A stretch of DNA of 33,915 nucleotides from an uncultured Candidatus Saccharibacteria bacterium (GTDB taxonomy: Bacteria > Patescibacteriota > Saccharimonadia > Saccharimonadales > Saccharimonadaceae): NCBI GenBank assembly GCA_944391325.1, contig CALXTC010000003.1, positions 1 through 33,915 of the forward strand. Reading direction: 5' to 3'. The translations under genes were made by a program, and so were the position numbers. The stretch's first letter is position 1; each line of letters begins with the position of its first letter. Below are positions 3,795 through 9,370 of the stretch, piece after piece. The notes under the pieces are model-generated. The model searched no databases. It was not told the origin of the DNA and saw only the letters and a program-made list of their open reading frames with translations.

Positions 3795-4856
3795 GTGATT
3801 TTGTATATTACTATCGGCGTGTTGAGTGTATTGGTTATTGTACTGGTTGTGGTTGTGGCTAAGCTGTCGGTTGGCGGGCGAAAAAATAATGATTACTTGC
3901 AGACTGATCTAATCAACCTACGCCAGGAGGTGGCTGATTTAACGACAACCCTAAATCAGACATTAACTGATCGTATGGACAAAACGCAAAGCTCTATGCA
4001 GTTCCAACTACGCCAGTCATCGGCTTTAATCAATGATGTTAGTCGTCGATTAACTAAGCTGGACGAAACGAATAAGCGCGTTGTTGATGTGGCTGACGAG
4101 CTGAAAACGTTGCAGAATGTTTTGCAGAATCCAAAGCAACGTGGTGTGTTCGGGGAATTCTATCTAAACTCAATTCTGGATAATGTATTGCCGCCAGGGC
4201 AATGGCGGGCGCAATACAAATTCCGAGATGGCGAAATTGTTGACGCAGTAATTTTTCTGGATAAAAATCGAATATTGCCAATTGATTCTAAGTTTAGTCT
4301 AGAAAATTACAATCGCTATATCGAGGCTAAGGACAAAGAAACTAAGTCCAAGCTGTTGACGCGGGTAAAAATGGATCTAAAAAATCGAATTGATGAAACA
4401 GCCAAATATATTCGGCCCAACGAAAACACAATGGATTTTGCCTTTATGTTTATACCTAGCGAGAGCCTGTATTATGATTTGCTGATTAGTAATGTGGGGC
4501 AGGGTGGTTCATCGCGTGACCTGATTGAGTATGCCTTTCGGGATAAGCGAGTAATTATTACTAGTCCGACTAGCTTTATGGCTTACCTAGAAACGGTTCT
4601 GCAGGGTTTGAGGAGCTTGCAGATTGAGGAGCAGGCTAAGGAAATTCAAAAACGAGTAGCCCAATTAGGCGTGCATATTGCTAAATACGACGAGTATATG
4701 AGTAAACTAGGTAATAGCCTAGGTACCACTGTTAACCACTTTAATAATGCCTACAAAGAGTTTGCTAAGGTCGACAAGGATGTGGTAAAAATCGCCAACG
4801 ACGGCAGCCAGTCGCGCATTTCGCCAGAGCCAGTTGATCGACCCAATGTTAGCTAG
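3795..4856 (+). CDS. rmuC: RmuC-family DNA recombination protein
   Basis: A 353-residue protein with an N-terminal membrane helix (about 2-24), a coiled-coil segment (about 35-110) and an RmuC nuclease-like domain. The domain contains GVFGEFYLNSIL, then ILPIDSKFSLENY, which carries the acidic and lysine residues of the PD-(D/E)xK-like core. RmuC proteins limit inversions at short inverted repeats in E. coli. The chosen start is GTG at 3795 because AGGAGA (3780-3785) lies nine bases upstream, overlapping the end of the ATPase gene. The C-terminus (RISPEPVDRPNVS) is a short polar tail. The family assignment is secure; its role in this organism is inferred. Confidence 0.88.
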   Translation: MILYITIGVLSVLVIVLVVVVAKLSVGGRKNNDYLQTDLINLRQEVADLTTTLNQTLTDRMDKTQSSMQFQLRQSSALINDVSRRLTKLDETNKRVVDVADELKTLQNVLQNPKQRGVFGEFYLNSILDNVLPPGQWRAQYKFRDGEIVDAVIFLDKNRILPIDSKFSLENYNRYIEAKDKETKSKLLTRVKMDLKNRIDETAKYIRPNENTMDFAFMFIPSESLYYDLLISNVGQGGSSRDLIEYAFRDKRVIITSPTSFMAYLETVLQGLRSLQIEEQAKEIQKRVAQLGVHIAKYDEYMSKLGNSLGTTVNHFNNAYKEFAKVDKDVVKIANDGSQSRISPEPVDRPNVS

Positions 4857-4862
4857 CGTCTG

Positions 4863-4887
4863 TGCTATAATAGCCAGTAGCACTATG
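4863..4887 (+). promoter_or_regulatory. Extended -10 promoter of the large surface-protein gene
   Basis: TGcTATAAT at 4863-4871 predicts a transcript start near 4878. The first in-frame ATG after it is at 4885 (leader about 7 bases). If translation instead starts at TTG 5053, the leader is about 175 bases and contains the palindromic elements. Confidence 0.6.
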
Positions 4888-7827
4888 GCCTGGTGGAACA
4901 AAACCAATAAAAACCTAGTAGGGGGGGGTAATTCCCAGAACCTAAACCAACGGTTTAGTTTTACCTCCCCTACTAGGAAAGGTAACTTACAAGGACGACC
5001 GCAGAATAACCGGCATTCTCTACACCTTGCCTCCCCTGCTAGGGGAGGTGACTTGCATCGCAAGTCGGTGGGGTTTAAAACCCTCACTATCGCTTGCTTA
5101 GCCTTAGCCCTCATTAGTACCATCTCCCTCAACATCATCAGAACCTACTCCATCAATAACACTCGGACTAATGCTCTAGGCAATGCTGCCTCAGGCATAA
5201 CTACCCAAAGTGCTAGCGATGGTAATGCTCTAACTGGCCCCGCATCCATCTCTCTTAAACTATCCCCAGTTACCACCAATACCACTAGTAACCCAGATAA
5301 CGGCTCAGCTCTCGTATCGCTTAGCATACCAGCCGATGGTGGCATTGCTGTTGGTGGACACAATATTACTATTAATACCAACAGCCCTAGTGGCTGGTAT
5401 ATGACAGCCACTGCTAATAGTAATGATGGTACGACTAATCTAGTTAATACTAATGACAACAGCAAGGTTATTCCAACACTACCAAATACTGTCACTATTA
5501 AAAATGCAACCAAACTAACAGATAACACCTGGGGTGTGGCATTGCCATATGGTGATTGGCTAGCTGCTGGTTATTACAATGACGAGGTAGACTACTTATC
5601 TAACGATCAATCCACTTTAGCTAACACAGTCTGGACGTCAATGGACCATATCAACAGCTTGTTGGACGATGAACGTGGCATTGCCTCGCAACAAGCCACC
5701 GGTCCAGCTACTCGCCATATCTACTATGGCGTCCGGGTAGATAAACCAGACAAACTATTAGCCGGCGACTACCAAATAAAGGTCACCTATACCGCCACTG
5801 CCATCCTCCCACCAGCCCCAGAACTAACCAAACTAGTCCTTAATGACTCAGTCCAACAGAACCAAACCAGTGAGTTTGCCATAGAGGGTACTAACCTAGA
5901 TACCGTCTATGATGTCTGGATAGACTATAACGACAATGGCATAGAAGATGCTAATGAAAAGGCTACTAATGTCACTACCTATCCCAATACCGACAAAGCC
6001 GGTACCATCATCTCCTTTACTAATCCCAACCCAACTAGCAACACCGTCTCACCTGGCACCTATGATGTCTATGCTGTTAGTCAAGGTGGTACCTCCCAAC
6101 CCCTAACTGATGCCTTCATTGTCCAAGAACAATCTACCTGCCGTAATGGTGATCCTAATTCAGACTGCCAAGTAGACATAGATGACAATATGATCCCCAT
6201 CTACTATGCCGGTAATAACACAGATGGTTCTGCTATATGGAAAGTAGCCAATGTTAACAACCCAGGTGAATGGTATGACTATACTAAGAAGCAGTGGGCT
6301 AATGCTGTCACTGTCCAATCCGGCAAACTCACCACCTACAAGAACAAACCGGGTACAACCATTAACAACAATGATGTCCTCGGCTACTGGGTCTACATCC
6401 CTAGATACGCCTATGAAGTCCAACGTCCTAATGCCATAGACAGAGTAGTCACTGATGAATACCCATTACCAGACAACAAGGTAACTAACAACTACAATAG
6501 CCATTCCATTAGAAATGAATTCTCCATTCACTTTGAAAAAGCCGCAGATACTAAGAAAACACCTGCTGAAACATGTAACACCCTAAACATAACCAGACCT
6601 AACCAAATGTGGGCTAATGGCACACCAACAGCAGAAGCCGGTCCAGACAACACTAACATCCTAGCCAAAGACTACCGTACTGGTTGTGCTGCTCCAGGCA
6701 ATACCAATGGTCAAAACAGCACGACCATCTCCAGGCTATATACCGATGCCACTACCCAAACAGGAACTAACACTACAGCCAACAATACCACCTGGGCTAC
6801 TCACCCAGCCTTTACATTCGGCAACACTGAATTAAACGGTCTCTGGATTGGTAAGTTTGAAACCACTGGTAAGGTTAATACCCCAACCATTAAGCCTAAC
6901 CAACATGCTAATACCTATGAATATGTTGGTACATTCTATACTATGGCCAAGTATATTGGAGTGCTTGATCCTAGAAATACTGGCGGCAATAATGTTAGTG
7001 GACTTAGTGCAAATTCTCACCACTTGGATAGTGCCACAACCCACATGATGAAAAATTCAGAATGGGGCGCAACCGCATATTTATCTTCGTCAAAATATGG
7101 AGCTGGTACTAACAATGTTCTTATAAATGCGGCTTATCCATCGGCTAGCTCAGATCAAGACGGCACACTGTCAGCATATGGAATTACGGGTTGTGGTCCA
7201 TATGATGACATAAATATCACACTCCGTTATTCTGATGGTGTATCTCTCGGGTCGAATATAATCGAATCACCAAATGCTTGCTCTAATGATTCTAAATTAG
7301 GGCTACAACGTGCATATAATGGCGATATCGGTCAATTAGCCAGCACGACTAATAACGTCTATGGCGTCTATGATATGTCTGGCGGGTCTTCTGAGTATGT
7401 TGCCGCAAATTTGACAAATACCAATACTGCGTCAACTGCTGGTGCTAGCAGTCAGTATTTTGTCTATGGCGTGGGTGAGCCATATGTTGATTTATATTAT
7501 GAATCAACTGGCGGATTTAATGTTGCTTCAAAGTGGTCGTATAGCTCTAGTTCACAGGCTTATAATAACGAAGCTTGTACATGGGCTACTTGTGGTGGTG
7601 ACGCTATCCATGAGACAAAAAGATACCAGGCTGTGTCTGGTAGTTCGCAATCATGGGGCAATGATACGGCTTATTTTCCGTATGGTGCGTTTAGATGGTT
7701 TCATAGAGGCGGCACTGCTGGTCATTCGGGAGGAGGTGCTGGTTTATTCTTTATGGGGCCAGAGTCCGGTATTCGATGGAACTCTTATGCTGTTAGGGCT
7801 GTTTTATTATCCTTTTCAACATCCTAG
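4885..7827 (+). CDS. Large surface protein with C-terminal lectin/FGE-like domain
   Basis: A 980-residue protein if started at ATG 4885, which follows the -10 box; the in-frame ATG at 4834 lies upstream of the promoter. Residues about 66-85 form a signal anchor. Then come an Asn/Thr-rich beta region (GHNITINTNSPSGWYMTAT), an IPT/TIG-like segment ending PGTYDVYAVSQGGTS, and a C-terminal half from about residue 430. That half has the landmarks of the lectin-fold formylglycine-enzyme-like family: YWVYIPRYAYEV, HPAFTFGNTELNGLWIGKFE, MMKNSEWGATAYLSSSKYG, VYGVYDMSGGSSEYV, and a final FRWFHRGG ... SYAVRAVL. It is probably displayed on the cell surface and binds a ligand. Base and codon use shift near 6950. 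The true start is uncertain: TTG 5053, five bases after GGGGAGG, also gives a good signal peptide. Confidence 0.85.
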   Translation: MAWWNKTNKNLVGGGNSQNLNQRFSFTSPTRKGNLQGRPQNNRHSLHLASPARGGDLHRKSVGFKTLTIACLALALISTISLNIIRTYSINNTRTNALGNAASGITTQSASDGNALTGPASISLKLSPVTTNTTSNPDNGSALVSLSIPADGGIAVGGHNITINTNSPSGWYMTATANSNDGTTNLVNTNDNSKVIPTLPNTVTIKNATKLTDNTWGVALPYGDWLAAGYYNDEVDYLSNDQSTLANTVWTSMDHINSLLDDERGIASQQATGPATRHIYYGVRVDKPDKLLAGDYQIKVTYTATAILPPAPELTKLVLNDSVQQNQTSEFAIEGTNLDTVYDVWIDYNDNGIEDANEKATNVTTYPNTDKAGTIISFTNPNPTSNTVSPGTYDVYAVSQGGTSQPLTDAFIVQEQSTCRNGDPNSDCQVDIDDNMIPIYYAGNNTDGSAIWKVANVNNPGEWYDYTKKQWANAVTVQSGKLTTYKNKPGTTINNNDVLGYWVYIPRYAYEVQRPNAIDRVVTDEYPLPDNKVTNNYNSHSIRNEFSIHFEKAADTKKTPAETCNTLNITRPNQMWANGTPTAEAGPDNTNILAKDYRTGCAAPGNTNGQNSTTISRLYTDATTQTGTNTTANNTTWATHPAFTFGNTELNGLWIGKFETTGKVNTPTIKPNQHANTYEYVGTFYTMAKYIGVLDPRNTGGNNVSGLSANSHHLDSATTHMMKNSEWGATAYLSSSKYGAGTNNVLINAAYPSASSDQDGTLSAYGITGCGPYDDINITLRYSDGVSLGSNIIESPNACSNDSKLGLQRAYNGDIGQLASTTNNVYGVYDMSGGSSEYVAANLTNTNTASTAGASSQYFVYGVGEPYVDLYYESTGGFNVASKWSYSSSSQAYNNEACTWATCGGDAIHETKRYQAVSGSSQSWGNDTAYFPYGAFRWFHRGGTAGHSGGGAGLFFMGPESGIRWNSYAVRAVLLSFSTS
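4914..4977. repeat. Palindromic repeat element, copy 1, inside coding sequence
   Basis: An outer inverted repeat pairs CCTAGTAGGGGGGGGTAA (4914-4931) with TTACCTCCCCTACTAGG (4961-4977), with one extra G and one mismatch. An inner hairpin pairs CTAAACC (4942-4948) with GGTTTAG (4952-4958). The frame stays open through it, encoding a low-complexity stretch ahead of the signal anchor. Confidence 0.7.
5029..5088. repeat. Palindromic repeat element, copy 2, inside coding sequence
   Basis: Three consecutive hairpins: CCTCCCC (5030-5036) with GGGGAGG (5042-5048); ACTTGC (5051-5056) with GCAAGT (5060-5065); and GGGTTT/AAACCC centred near 5077. The first hairpin shares the CCTCCCCT.CTAGG core with copy 1. 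Elements of this style (short GC-rich arms, CTCCCC...GGGGAG) are usually extragenic in other bacteria. Here one is translated in frame (ASPARGGDLHRKSVGF) directly before the signal anchor. Confidence 0.65.
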
Positions 7828-7948: not shown

Positions 7949-9010
7949 TTAGTCCTCGATAGCCTTGGTGTTTTCAGCCTCGTTCTTGCTCATTATCTTG
8001 TAGATGGCAAAACCGATGGTTGCGCCTAGAATGCTGCCAATGATATAAACCAAGATTGGCCACATAAATGCCTGGACACTACCCCAACCGAATACGCCCA
8101 TAGTGGCGGCGATAGCTGGGTTTAGAATGGCTGTGCTACCAGCAATTAGTAGACCAGCGATTAAGCTGACACCCATGGCTAAGCCAGCGGCTACCTTGCT
8201 ATCCTTACGCTTGACGTAGGCATAGGCTGCGCCAACGCCCACAACGATTGAGCCTAGGATTTCAGCAAGTAGAGCAACCCATTCCTTACCCTCGGTTAGT
8301 TGGTTGTATTGGAATAATTCTGGAGCCTCCTTGCTAATACCTAGCTGGGCAGCAATGGTATCAATACCACCGTAAGTTTCTACCCACTGATCGTAACCAC
8401 CATATTGCTCTAGGGCTTCCTCGGTGACGCCGGCGCTTTCGACGCCCTGGCGAACTGTTGCCTCGTAATCATAGCCAGCGTTGTTGATGCCGGTTAGGAT
8501 AAAGAAGGCTAAAATTGCACCTAGAACCTGGGCGACAATATAGGCAACGGCCTTGACGCCATTAATCTTGCGGTTAATCCACTGAGCCAGTGTGATGGCT
8601 GGGTTGAAGTGTGCGCCGCTAATACCAACAAATGCAATGACCATAGCAACTATCGCTAGTGCAATGCCGATCAAGCCGTAGTAACTATTGTTAACTAGAC
8701 GAATAAACACAGCCGTAATTACAAATGTGCCAATTAGCTCGGCAATTAGTGCAGCTGGATTTAGAGCGGCCAATTTATCGCTCAGAGTTAGTTTCTTTTT
8801 GCCGTTTTTGTCGACGGTCTTGTCGATAACGGGTGCTTCAACCTCAACGACTTCAACAACCTCTTCGACTACGTCTGGTTCGGTACTGTTAATCTTGTCG
8901 GCAACCTCCTCGGCCTTGACCTTGGCTGCTTCTGCCTTGGTCTGTTTGGCTGACGCAGGCTTGGTAGACTTCTTGCTAGAAGTAGAGCGCTTGCTCTTCT
9001 TTGTAGCCAT
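7949..9010 (-). CDS. MIP/aquaporin-like channel with long cytoplasmic tail
   Basis: A 353-residue protein. Residues 1-80 are a charged Lys/Ala/Ser/Glu-rich tail unlike ordinary aquaporins. The rest has six or so membrane helices with two half-helix NPA motifs: GAHFNPAIT and, near the C-terminus, AILNPAIAATMG. The second NPA lacks the following Arg that forms the selectivity filter of most aquaporins (NPAR), so the pore is probably unusual. About 65 acidic, Tyr-rich residues are inserted between helices 3 and 4. The family normally passes water, glycerol or small neutral solutes; the substrate here is unknown. The start ATG is supported by AAGGAGGG six bases upstream. The gene is monocistronic between a bidirectional terminator and its own promoter. 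Confidence 0.88.
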   Translation of the reverse strand: MATKKSKRSTSSKKSTKPASAKQTKAEAAKVKAEEVADKINSTEPDVVEEVVEVVEVEAPVIDKTVDKNGKKKLTLSDKLAALNPAALIAELIGTFVITAVFIRLVNNSYYGLIGIALAIVAMVIAFVGISGAHFNPAITLAQWINRKINGVKAVAYIVAQVLGAILAFFILTGINNAGYDYEATVRQGVESAGVTEEALEQYGGYDQWVETYGGIDTIAAQLGISKEAPELFQYNQLTEGKEWVALLAEILGSIVVGVGAAYAYVKRKDSKVAAGLAMGVSLIAGLLIAGSTAILNPAIAATMGVFGWGSVQAFMWPILVYIIGSILGATIGFAIYKIMSKNEAENTKAIED

Positions 9011-9124: not shown

Positions 9125-9139
9125 TATAATATGCCTATG
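9125..9139 (+). promoter_or_regulatory. -10 box placed for a leaderless start at 9137
   Basis: TATAAT at 9125-9130 abuts ATG 9131 and lies six bases before the in-frame ATG at 9137. Normal spacing puts transcription start exactly on 9137, so that second ATG is the preferred start. Confidence 0.55.
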
Positions 9140-9370
9140 TCTATTATTTATAATGATACTCAGGAAAAAAGCGAGCTACAGCGTAAGATTACGGCAGAAT
9201 TGCGCGCCAAACAGGAGGCAGCCTCGTCAAATGAGGTCAAGCAATCACTAACAAGTTTTGATGATCCCGATTATAGTCGAGAGATTAAACTATCTAAAAC
9301 TACCATCTGGGTTATCATTTTGGCAGTTGCCGCGTTGTTAGCGGTGTTGCTATATATGATGGTTAGATGA
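9137..9370 (+). CDS. Small tail-anchored membrane protein, unknown function
   Basis: A 77-residue protein if started at ATG 9137 (79 from ATG 9131). Residues 1-50 are polar and charged with a helical, Lys/Glu/Gln-rich section; a single membrane helix (about 54-74, TIWVIILAVAALLAVLLYMM) sits at the C-terminus, followed by VR. This is the layout of a tail-anchored protein with a cytoplasmic N-terminus. It is the only gene in the window ending in TGA, and an in-frame TAA follows two codons later within a tandem 9-base repeat. It precedes another small membrane protein and pheS. I do not recognise a family. Confidence 0.65.
   Translation: MSIIYNDTQEKSELQRKITAELRAKQEAASSNEVKQSLTSFDDPDYSREIKLSKTTIWVIILAVAALLAVLLYMMVR

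Follow-up and report, generated by a model that had tools for sequence, protein, structure and literature searches.

The window, a stretch of 33,915 nucleotides, is the whole of contig C3 of a 623,616-base genome that was assembled in 27 contigs and is estimated to be 77.8% complete. Between an RmuC-family gene and an aquaporin-type (MIP) gene, it holds a plus-strand open frame of 997 aa that runs from a TTG at 4834 to 7827 (Table 1). We take the ATG at 4885 as the likely start, because the resulting M-V/A/K-W(W) beginning is common to the paralogues described below; a TATAAT lies just 5′ of this ATG (4866 to 4871). The original prediction had placed a surface protein at 6170 to 7827, which does cover the C-terminal half of the gene, but the gene itself is longer (likely 4885 to 7827). 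The motifs cited in support of that prediction were present where they had been claimed (WFHRGG from ~7693, AGLFF at ~7737, and YAVRAVL at ~7786). The gap between the RmuC and MIP genes is 3.1 kb here. Between matched ends, the two genes lie about 60 bp apart in G001, a genome of the same genus, ~130 bp apart in G004, and ~650 bp apart in G003. As judged from gene order, C3 may either have been inserted here or have been lost in these relatives.

Table 1. Features of the C3 locus (positions in the window)
Feature	Position	Strand	Remarks
RmuC-family gene	3795..4856	+	Conserved left neighbour of the putative C3 insertion point
Target-type surface protein gene, copy C3	4885..7827	+	Start common with paralogues; likely start ATG 4885
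Poly-G tract (G8) in C3	4921..4928	+	36 nt past the ATG; G8 leaves C3 in frame
C3 leader with palindromic repeats	4941..5076	+	Common to C8, C19, C22, and C23
Hydrophobic N-terminal anchor segment of C3	5077..5139	+	Putative; read off the translation
Exchangeable module 1 of C3	5914..6033	+	DNA identity 90-92% to C1, C19, and C23; 44-46% to C8 and C22
Exchangeable module 2 of C3	6154..6393	+	DNA identity 95% to C1 and C8; 58-62% to C19, C22, and C23
TaqVP-like C-type-lectin/FGE-fold region of C3	6154..7824	+	Predicted structure and structure matches
C3 C-terminal part, diverged from each of the six paralogues	6940..7827	+	Base skew and third-position usage altered
Variable-region equivalent of C3	7648..7806	+	Aligns with the G004, G016, and G013 template repeats
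Aquaporin-type (MIP) gene	7949..9010	-	Conserved right neighbour of C3

A structure model of the TaqVP-like region, built from a 39-sequence alignment, had a pTM of 0.84 and a mean pLDDT of 74.9, with residues 142 to 206 and some shorter stretches below 50. The best structure match was TaqVP of Thermus aquaticus (PDB 5vf4; Foldseek E = 1.7 × 10−7), a variable protein of a diversity-generating retroelement (DGR), which aligned over 279 residues (Z = 20.9; rmsd 4.5; VIA-align). TvpA of Treponema denticola came second (2y3c; Z = 12.0), followed by PvdO, Mtd, and FGE-type chains (Z of about 8 to 12). The modelled C-terminal fold of C3 is thus that of DGR variable proteins, as the original prediction of a lectin/FGE-like domain of the retroelement-diversified type had it, a common fold being in itself no proof of function. 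As in DGR-target families, the C-type-lectin fold is combined here with variable columns at the C terminus. We set aside a reading of C3 as an FGE enzyme on the basis of the fold match, in which the FGE chains scored far below TaqVP (Z = 9.8 to 10.7). A Pfam scan of the C3 protein yielded no family at cut-off, and nothing usable came from Pfam and NCBIfam scans or from searching its sequence against solved structures.

Seven full-length copies of the gene were found on seven contigs of the genome, after which we name them C1, C3, C7, C8, C19, C22, and C23, and the family occupies about 20 kb. Since seven genes in one genome have the domain, its presence in C3 is not a chance match. Across 61 genomes (this one and 60 relatives), 7 had a family match at E = 10−5, this genome being one of the 7. 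Named collections, from which 80 of 542 loci were kept, contained the family in metagenome-assembled genomes titled Saccharibacteria, "Nomurabacteria," Bacilli, Clostridia, and others. No relatives turned up in IMG/VR when it was scanned with either the target alignment or the reverse transcriptase (RT) fragment described below.

Six of the seven copies carry a tract of 7 to 10 G located 36 to 59 nt past the ATG (C23, 7; C3 and C22, 8; C8 and C7, 9; C19, 10). The tracts of C3, C22, and C7 have lengths that keep the gene in frame, whereas those of C8, C19, and C23 put it out of frame, with a stop after 20 to 26 codons (states read from one assembly). When tract length was subtracted from the distance between the ATG and the anchor, the remainder was 1 in all five aligned leaders, indicating that the tract alone sets the frame. 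The six tract-bearing copies therefore have the hallmark of phase-variable genes, a homopolymer near the start whose length determines the reading frame. Long G runs are otherwise sparse: the genome holds nine runs of at least 8 G, five of them in these leaders, and 113,835 bases of the same genome contained six G/C runs of at least 7, the number and lengths matching those of the six leader tracts. A binomial estimate of 5 × 10−14 for the tracts assumes independence, which related copies do not have. Given the frame states seen, slippage in the poly-G tract probably switches the copies on and off. No poly-G tract preceded the homologues in the loci of G001, G004, G016, G022, and G026 that have a complete start; most of the G013 sequences end short of the start and so fall outside this comparison. 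The leaders that precede the membrane anchor in C3, C8, C19, C22, and C23 are made of palindromic repeat units, and in C22 one unit is duplicated in frame.

Upstream of the variable region (VR), the copies are mosaics of alternative modules. In module 1, C3, C1, C19, and C23 were mutually 90 to 94% identical and C8 was 93% identical to C22, with 42 to 46% identity between the two groups. In module 2, C3, C1, and C8 were 95% identical, and the remaining pairs shared 50 to 66%. All four combinations of the two modules occur (in C3, in C23 and C19, in C8, and in C22), which requires recombination. Exact stretches in common among the copies reach 111 bp. From 6940 onward, C3 is 43 to 60% identical to the five copies compared, and the base skew changes.

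Homologues in related genomes are DGR targets. In G004 (C20) and G016 (C1), a homologue of the C3 protein lies within a few kilobases of an RT, and a template nearly identical to the VR differs from it at adenines (16 of 16 and 23 of 24 template/variable mismatches, respectively, at a template adenine). Comparison of loci with themselves gave 20 of 23 mismatches at template adenines both in G022 (C47) and at a further G004 contig (C41). The gene order in G004 is template, bAvd-like frame (E = 0.0011), RT, and then the target on the opposite strand. Two RTs from the relatives carry IGNYTSQ and YMDD, which we take to be DGR-type motifs. Of the 80 loci from the named collections, 4 contained an RT and 3 contained an adenine-biased template. 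In G013, comparison with a single template on contig C30 showed that the differences favoured adenines in 14 of 17 variable segments (one-sided P < 0.05); the 17 rows exclude the template itself and a duplicate pair of the same two places (L105). The result indicates dispersed targets of one template type, and the RT adjoining the C30 template is broken.

We then used the templates of G004, G016, and G013 as the reference for the copies in the genome under study, defining 16 signature columns in which at least two of the three templates have AAY. Across the seven copies, amino acid entropy averaged 2.16 bits in these columns and 1.17 bits in the 50 others, a level that none of 20,000 permutations reached. 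AAY columns ended in C or T in 15/16 cases for C8, 14/15 for C23, 16/16 for C19, 15/16 for C22, and 14/16 for C7, or 74 of 79 cells compared to 152 of 249 elsewhere. In contrast, C3 and C1 each had 10 of 16, equal to the background rate (28/50). At codon positions 1 and 2, C8 and C23 differed at 21 of 40 template-adenine sites and at 2 of 74 others (P = 5 × 10−10), C23 and C22 at 24 of 40 and 11 of 74, and C8 and C22 at 21 of 42 and 10 of 74. Sliding the templates by 1 to 3 codons abolished the contrast (18 slides; P = 0.038 to 0.98 overall, and 0.038 to 0.49 for C8 against C23). Inside the VR, C8 and C23 showed 2 synonymous and 18 nonsynonymous codon differences, whereas 164 of 407 codons differed upstream of it (84 synonymous and 80 nonsynonymous). 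Variation in C8, C23, and C22 is therefore concentrated at template-adenine sites, and the overwriting of both VRs by one shared template would explain the C8/C23 pattern. That template is not the one of C7 as C7 now stands, because the C7 and C8 backbones differ as well. C7 showed an adenine excess solely against the G004 template (P = 0.045); C19 and C1 showed none against the three relatives' templates.

The last ~140 bases of C3 had originally been proposed as a possible diversified face. This holds for the homologues. For C3 the evidence is mixed: it lacks the AAY fingerprint there, and diversification of C3 itself is unproven. Compared with its own paralogues, C3 gave P values of 0.0025 to 0.065 at codon positions 1 and 2, a result that variation within the partner copies is enough to account for, and little adenine contrast over all codon positions (one-sided P = 0.014 to 0.45; six copies).

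Neither an RT nor a template repeat lies in the window, as had been stated, but the genome does hold part of an RT. RVT_1 (PF00078) had 0 matches in this genome, and a profile of two relatives' RTs recovered what RVT_1 missed, a DGR-type RT 5′ fragment on contig C7 (27119 to 27418; N-terminal 100 aa; E = 6.6 × 10−22). The contig ends before the catalytic motifs. The fragment lies directly 3′ of a bAvd-like frame (E = 3.7 × 10−7; 31 bits, the Pfam curated cut-off being 40), and the two adjoin the C7 paralogue. The C8 VR, used as a DNA query against the assembly, found only C8, C23, C22, and a 14-base chance match, with no template; a template search inside the retrieved stretches of this genome found none; and a profile search that included C3 found no template for any of the seven copies in the 77.8%-complete assembly. 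The proposed genome-wide search for an RT and a near-copy template thus succeeded for the RT in the form of its 5′ fragment and failed for the template. The interpretation of the domain as a DGR target nonetheless gains support from the adenine-only pairs of the relatives, from the bAvd-like frame and RT fragment beside C7, and from the signature in C8, C23, and C22. A strong hairpin was also seen right past the C7 target stop (~9126 to 9160; L019, G000:C7). Hairpins after the target stop are frequent at DGR homing sites.

Taken together, we consider C3 to be a member of a dispersed, mosaic, apparently phase-variable family of DGR targets, with a VR that is probably either retired or supplied from a template that the assembly lacks (probability of roughly 0.8). 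C3 belongs to a set of seven or more dispersed paralogues for putatively membrane-anchored proteins that end in a TaqVP-type C-type-lectin domain, which would be the DGR display domain. Acting in trans, a DGR would rewrite the final ~50 codons of certain copies: the RT would miscopy a template RNA at its adenines, and the resulting cDNA would take the place of the VR. Recombination among copies shuffles alternative N-terminal and middle modules, and slippage in the 7- to 10-G tract would toggle copies on and off; C3 is in frame, with a VR apparently not written by the template behind C8, C23, and C22. The proteins may bind host cells or particles, and their variation may alter the ligand or escape recognition. 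Whether all three layers (poly-G switching, shuffling between copies, and rewriting of the binding face in trans by at least one DGR) form one device in this ultra-small CPR bacterium, with the silent C8 and C23 rewritable before expression, seems to us an evenly balanced question.

Alternatively, a second DGR template, missing from the assembly and differing in its adenine codons, could be actively serving C3 as a remote target. The incompleteness of the assembly, the end of the C7 contig inside the RT, and the separate base skew of the C3 C-terminal part are all compatible with this idea, as is a weak adenine excess of C3 against the three relatives' templates (P = 0.017, 0.051, and 0.023). 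However, the third bases of C3 in the AAY columns are at background, AAY at these columns is common to the templates of G004, G016, and G013, and template peptides from Bacilli are Asn-rich too; we regard a second template as possible but on the unlikely side. An ordinary paralogue family, shaped by duplication, recombination, and diversifying selection with no DGR acting in this genome, would fit with the missing template, with the lack of signature in C3 and C1, and with the clear occurrence of recombination. Such a history appears highly improbable to us, since selection or gene conversion would not pick out the adenines of other genomes' templates, the C8-C23 VR backbone is almost unchanged while half of the template-adenine sites and many upstream codons differ, and the genome contains an RT fragment.

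Two further alternatives concern the leaders and the mosaic. If translation began past the tract, at an in-leader TTG (LHRKSVG...), the leader would be untranslated and the poly-G tract would not be a switch. A purine-rich context (GGGGAGGTGACTTG) lies 5′ of this TTG, and the ORF finder begins C19 and C23 there. Nevertheless, the M-V/A/K-W(W) start is common to all seven copies, C1 and C7 read through from that ATG, and the equal remainder in the five aligned leaders means that the tract alone shifts the frame, making the TTG start unlikely. The mosaic and the tract lengths could also be artefacts of assembling similar paralogues from short reads, as the exact common stretches (up to 111 bp) are long enough to cause a mis-join. 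This would be a very improbable outcome given that the alternative modules differ at about half of their bases, lie on different contigs, and occur in all four combinations.

The preferred reading of a mosaic, phase-variable DGR-target family joins elements known separately. TaqVP has a C-terminal VR, as the C3 family does; its alignment spans only the C-terminal part of the ~980-aa anchored C3 protein, and this genome has seven dispersed copies, six of them with poly-G. In T. denticola, DGR surface targets lie remote from the RT core, and some are left without an RT (PMC4891356). Remote surface targets are thus common to both systems; the shuffled modules and poly-G leaders found here are not mentioned for the Treponema targets in the available part of that report. 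Cyanobacteria carry paralogous C-type-lectin remote variable proteins genome-wide, with template homology, and these are mostly predicted to be cytosolic, unlike the present family with its N-terminal hydrophobic anchor (PMC7517822). DGRs are common in CPR bacteria (PMC8144416), and that survey states that it could not detect remote targets. Its "clade 2" DGRs share with our family a CPR-type host and C-terminal lectin-fold targets, which typically lack recognizable transmembrane segments, in contrast to the anchored proteins here; membership in the same clade is not implied. Poly-G contingency genes, such as those for HmbR and HpuAB, the haemoglobin receptors of meningococci, resemble the copies here in having a homopolymeric G tract within the coding frame that puts it in or out of register. 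Remote DGR targets (T. denticola and cyanobacteria) and CPR DGRs are already known; our literature search retrieved no paper in which DGRs were treated together with phase variation through homopolymeric tracts.

Little is settled about how CPR bacteria recognise their hosts and hold on to them, and a lectin family that takes up ~20 kb of a very small genome points to a likely contact surface. Should phase switching and DGR rewriting both operate on these genes, silent copies could be changed and then exposed. Two mechanisms of variation that are usually studied apart would be joined in one gene family, providing a system suited to asking how such tiny, parasitic-type cells change their adhesion targets.

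Several additional observations were made in the course of the analysis. On contig C13 of this genome (L219, ~1398 to 1416; G000:C13), a G8 tract opens a 269-aa frame whose translation resembles an ABC-transporter ATPase, a possible further switch. In G013 (L111, 4239 to 5115; G013:C30), the template looks intact beside a broken, rearranged RT, and many VR copies are present in the genome, so this DGR was possibly lost recently. In G022 (L115, 4007 to 4536; G022:C8), all 13 mismatches of another template/variable pair fall at adenine, and the contig also has an RT match. The DGR target of G004 is very long (L067, 6590 to 15973; G004:C20): its open frame of 4422 aa adjoins its own template and RT and reads as many repeated immunoglobulin-like stretches.
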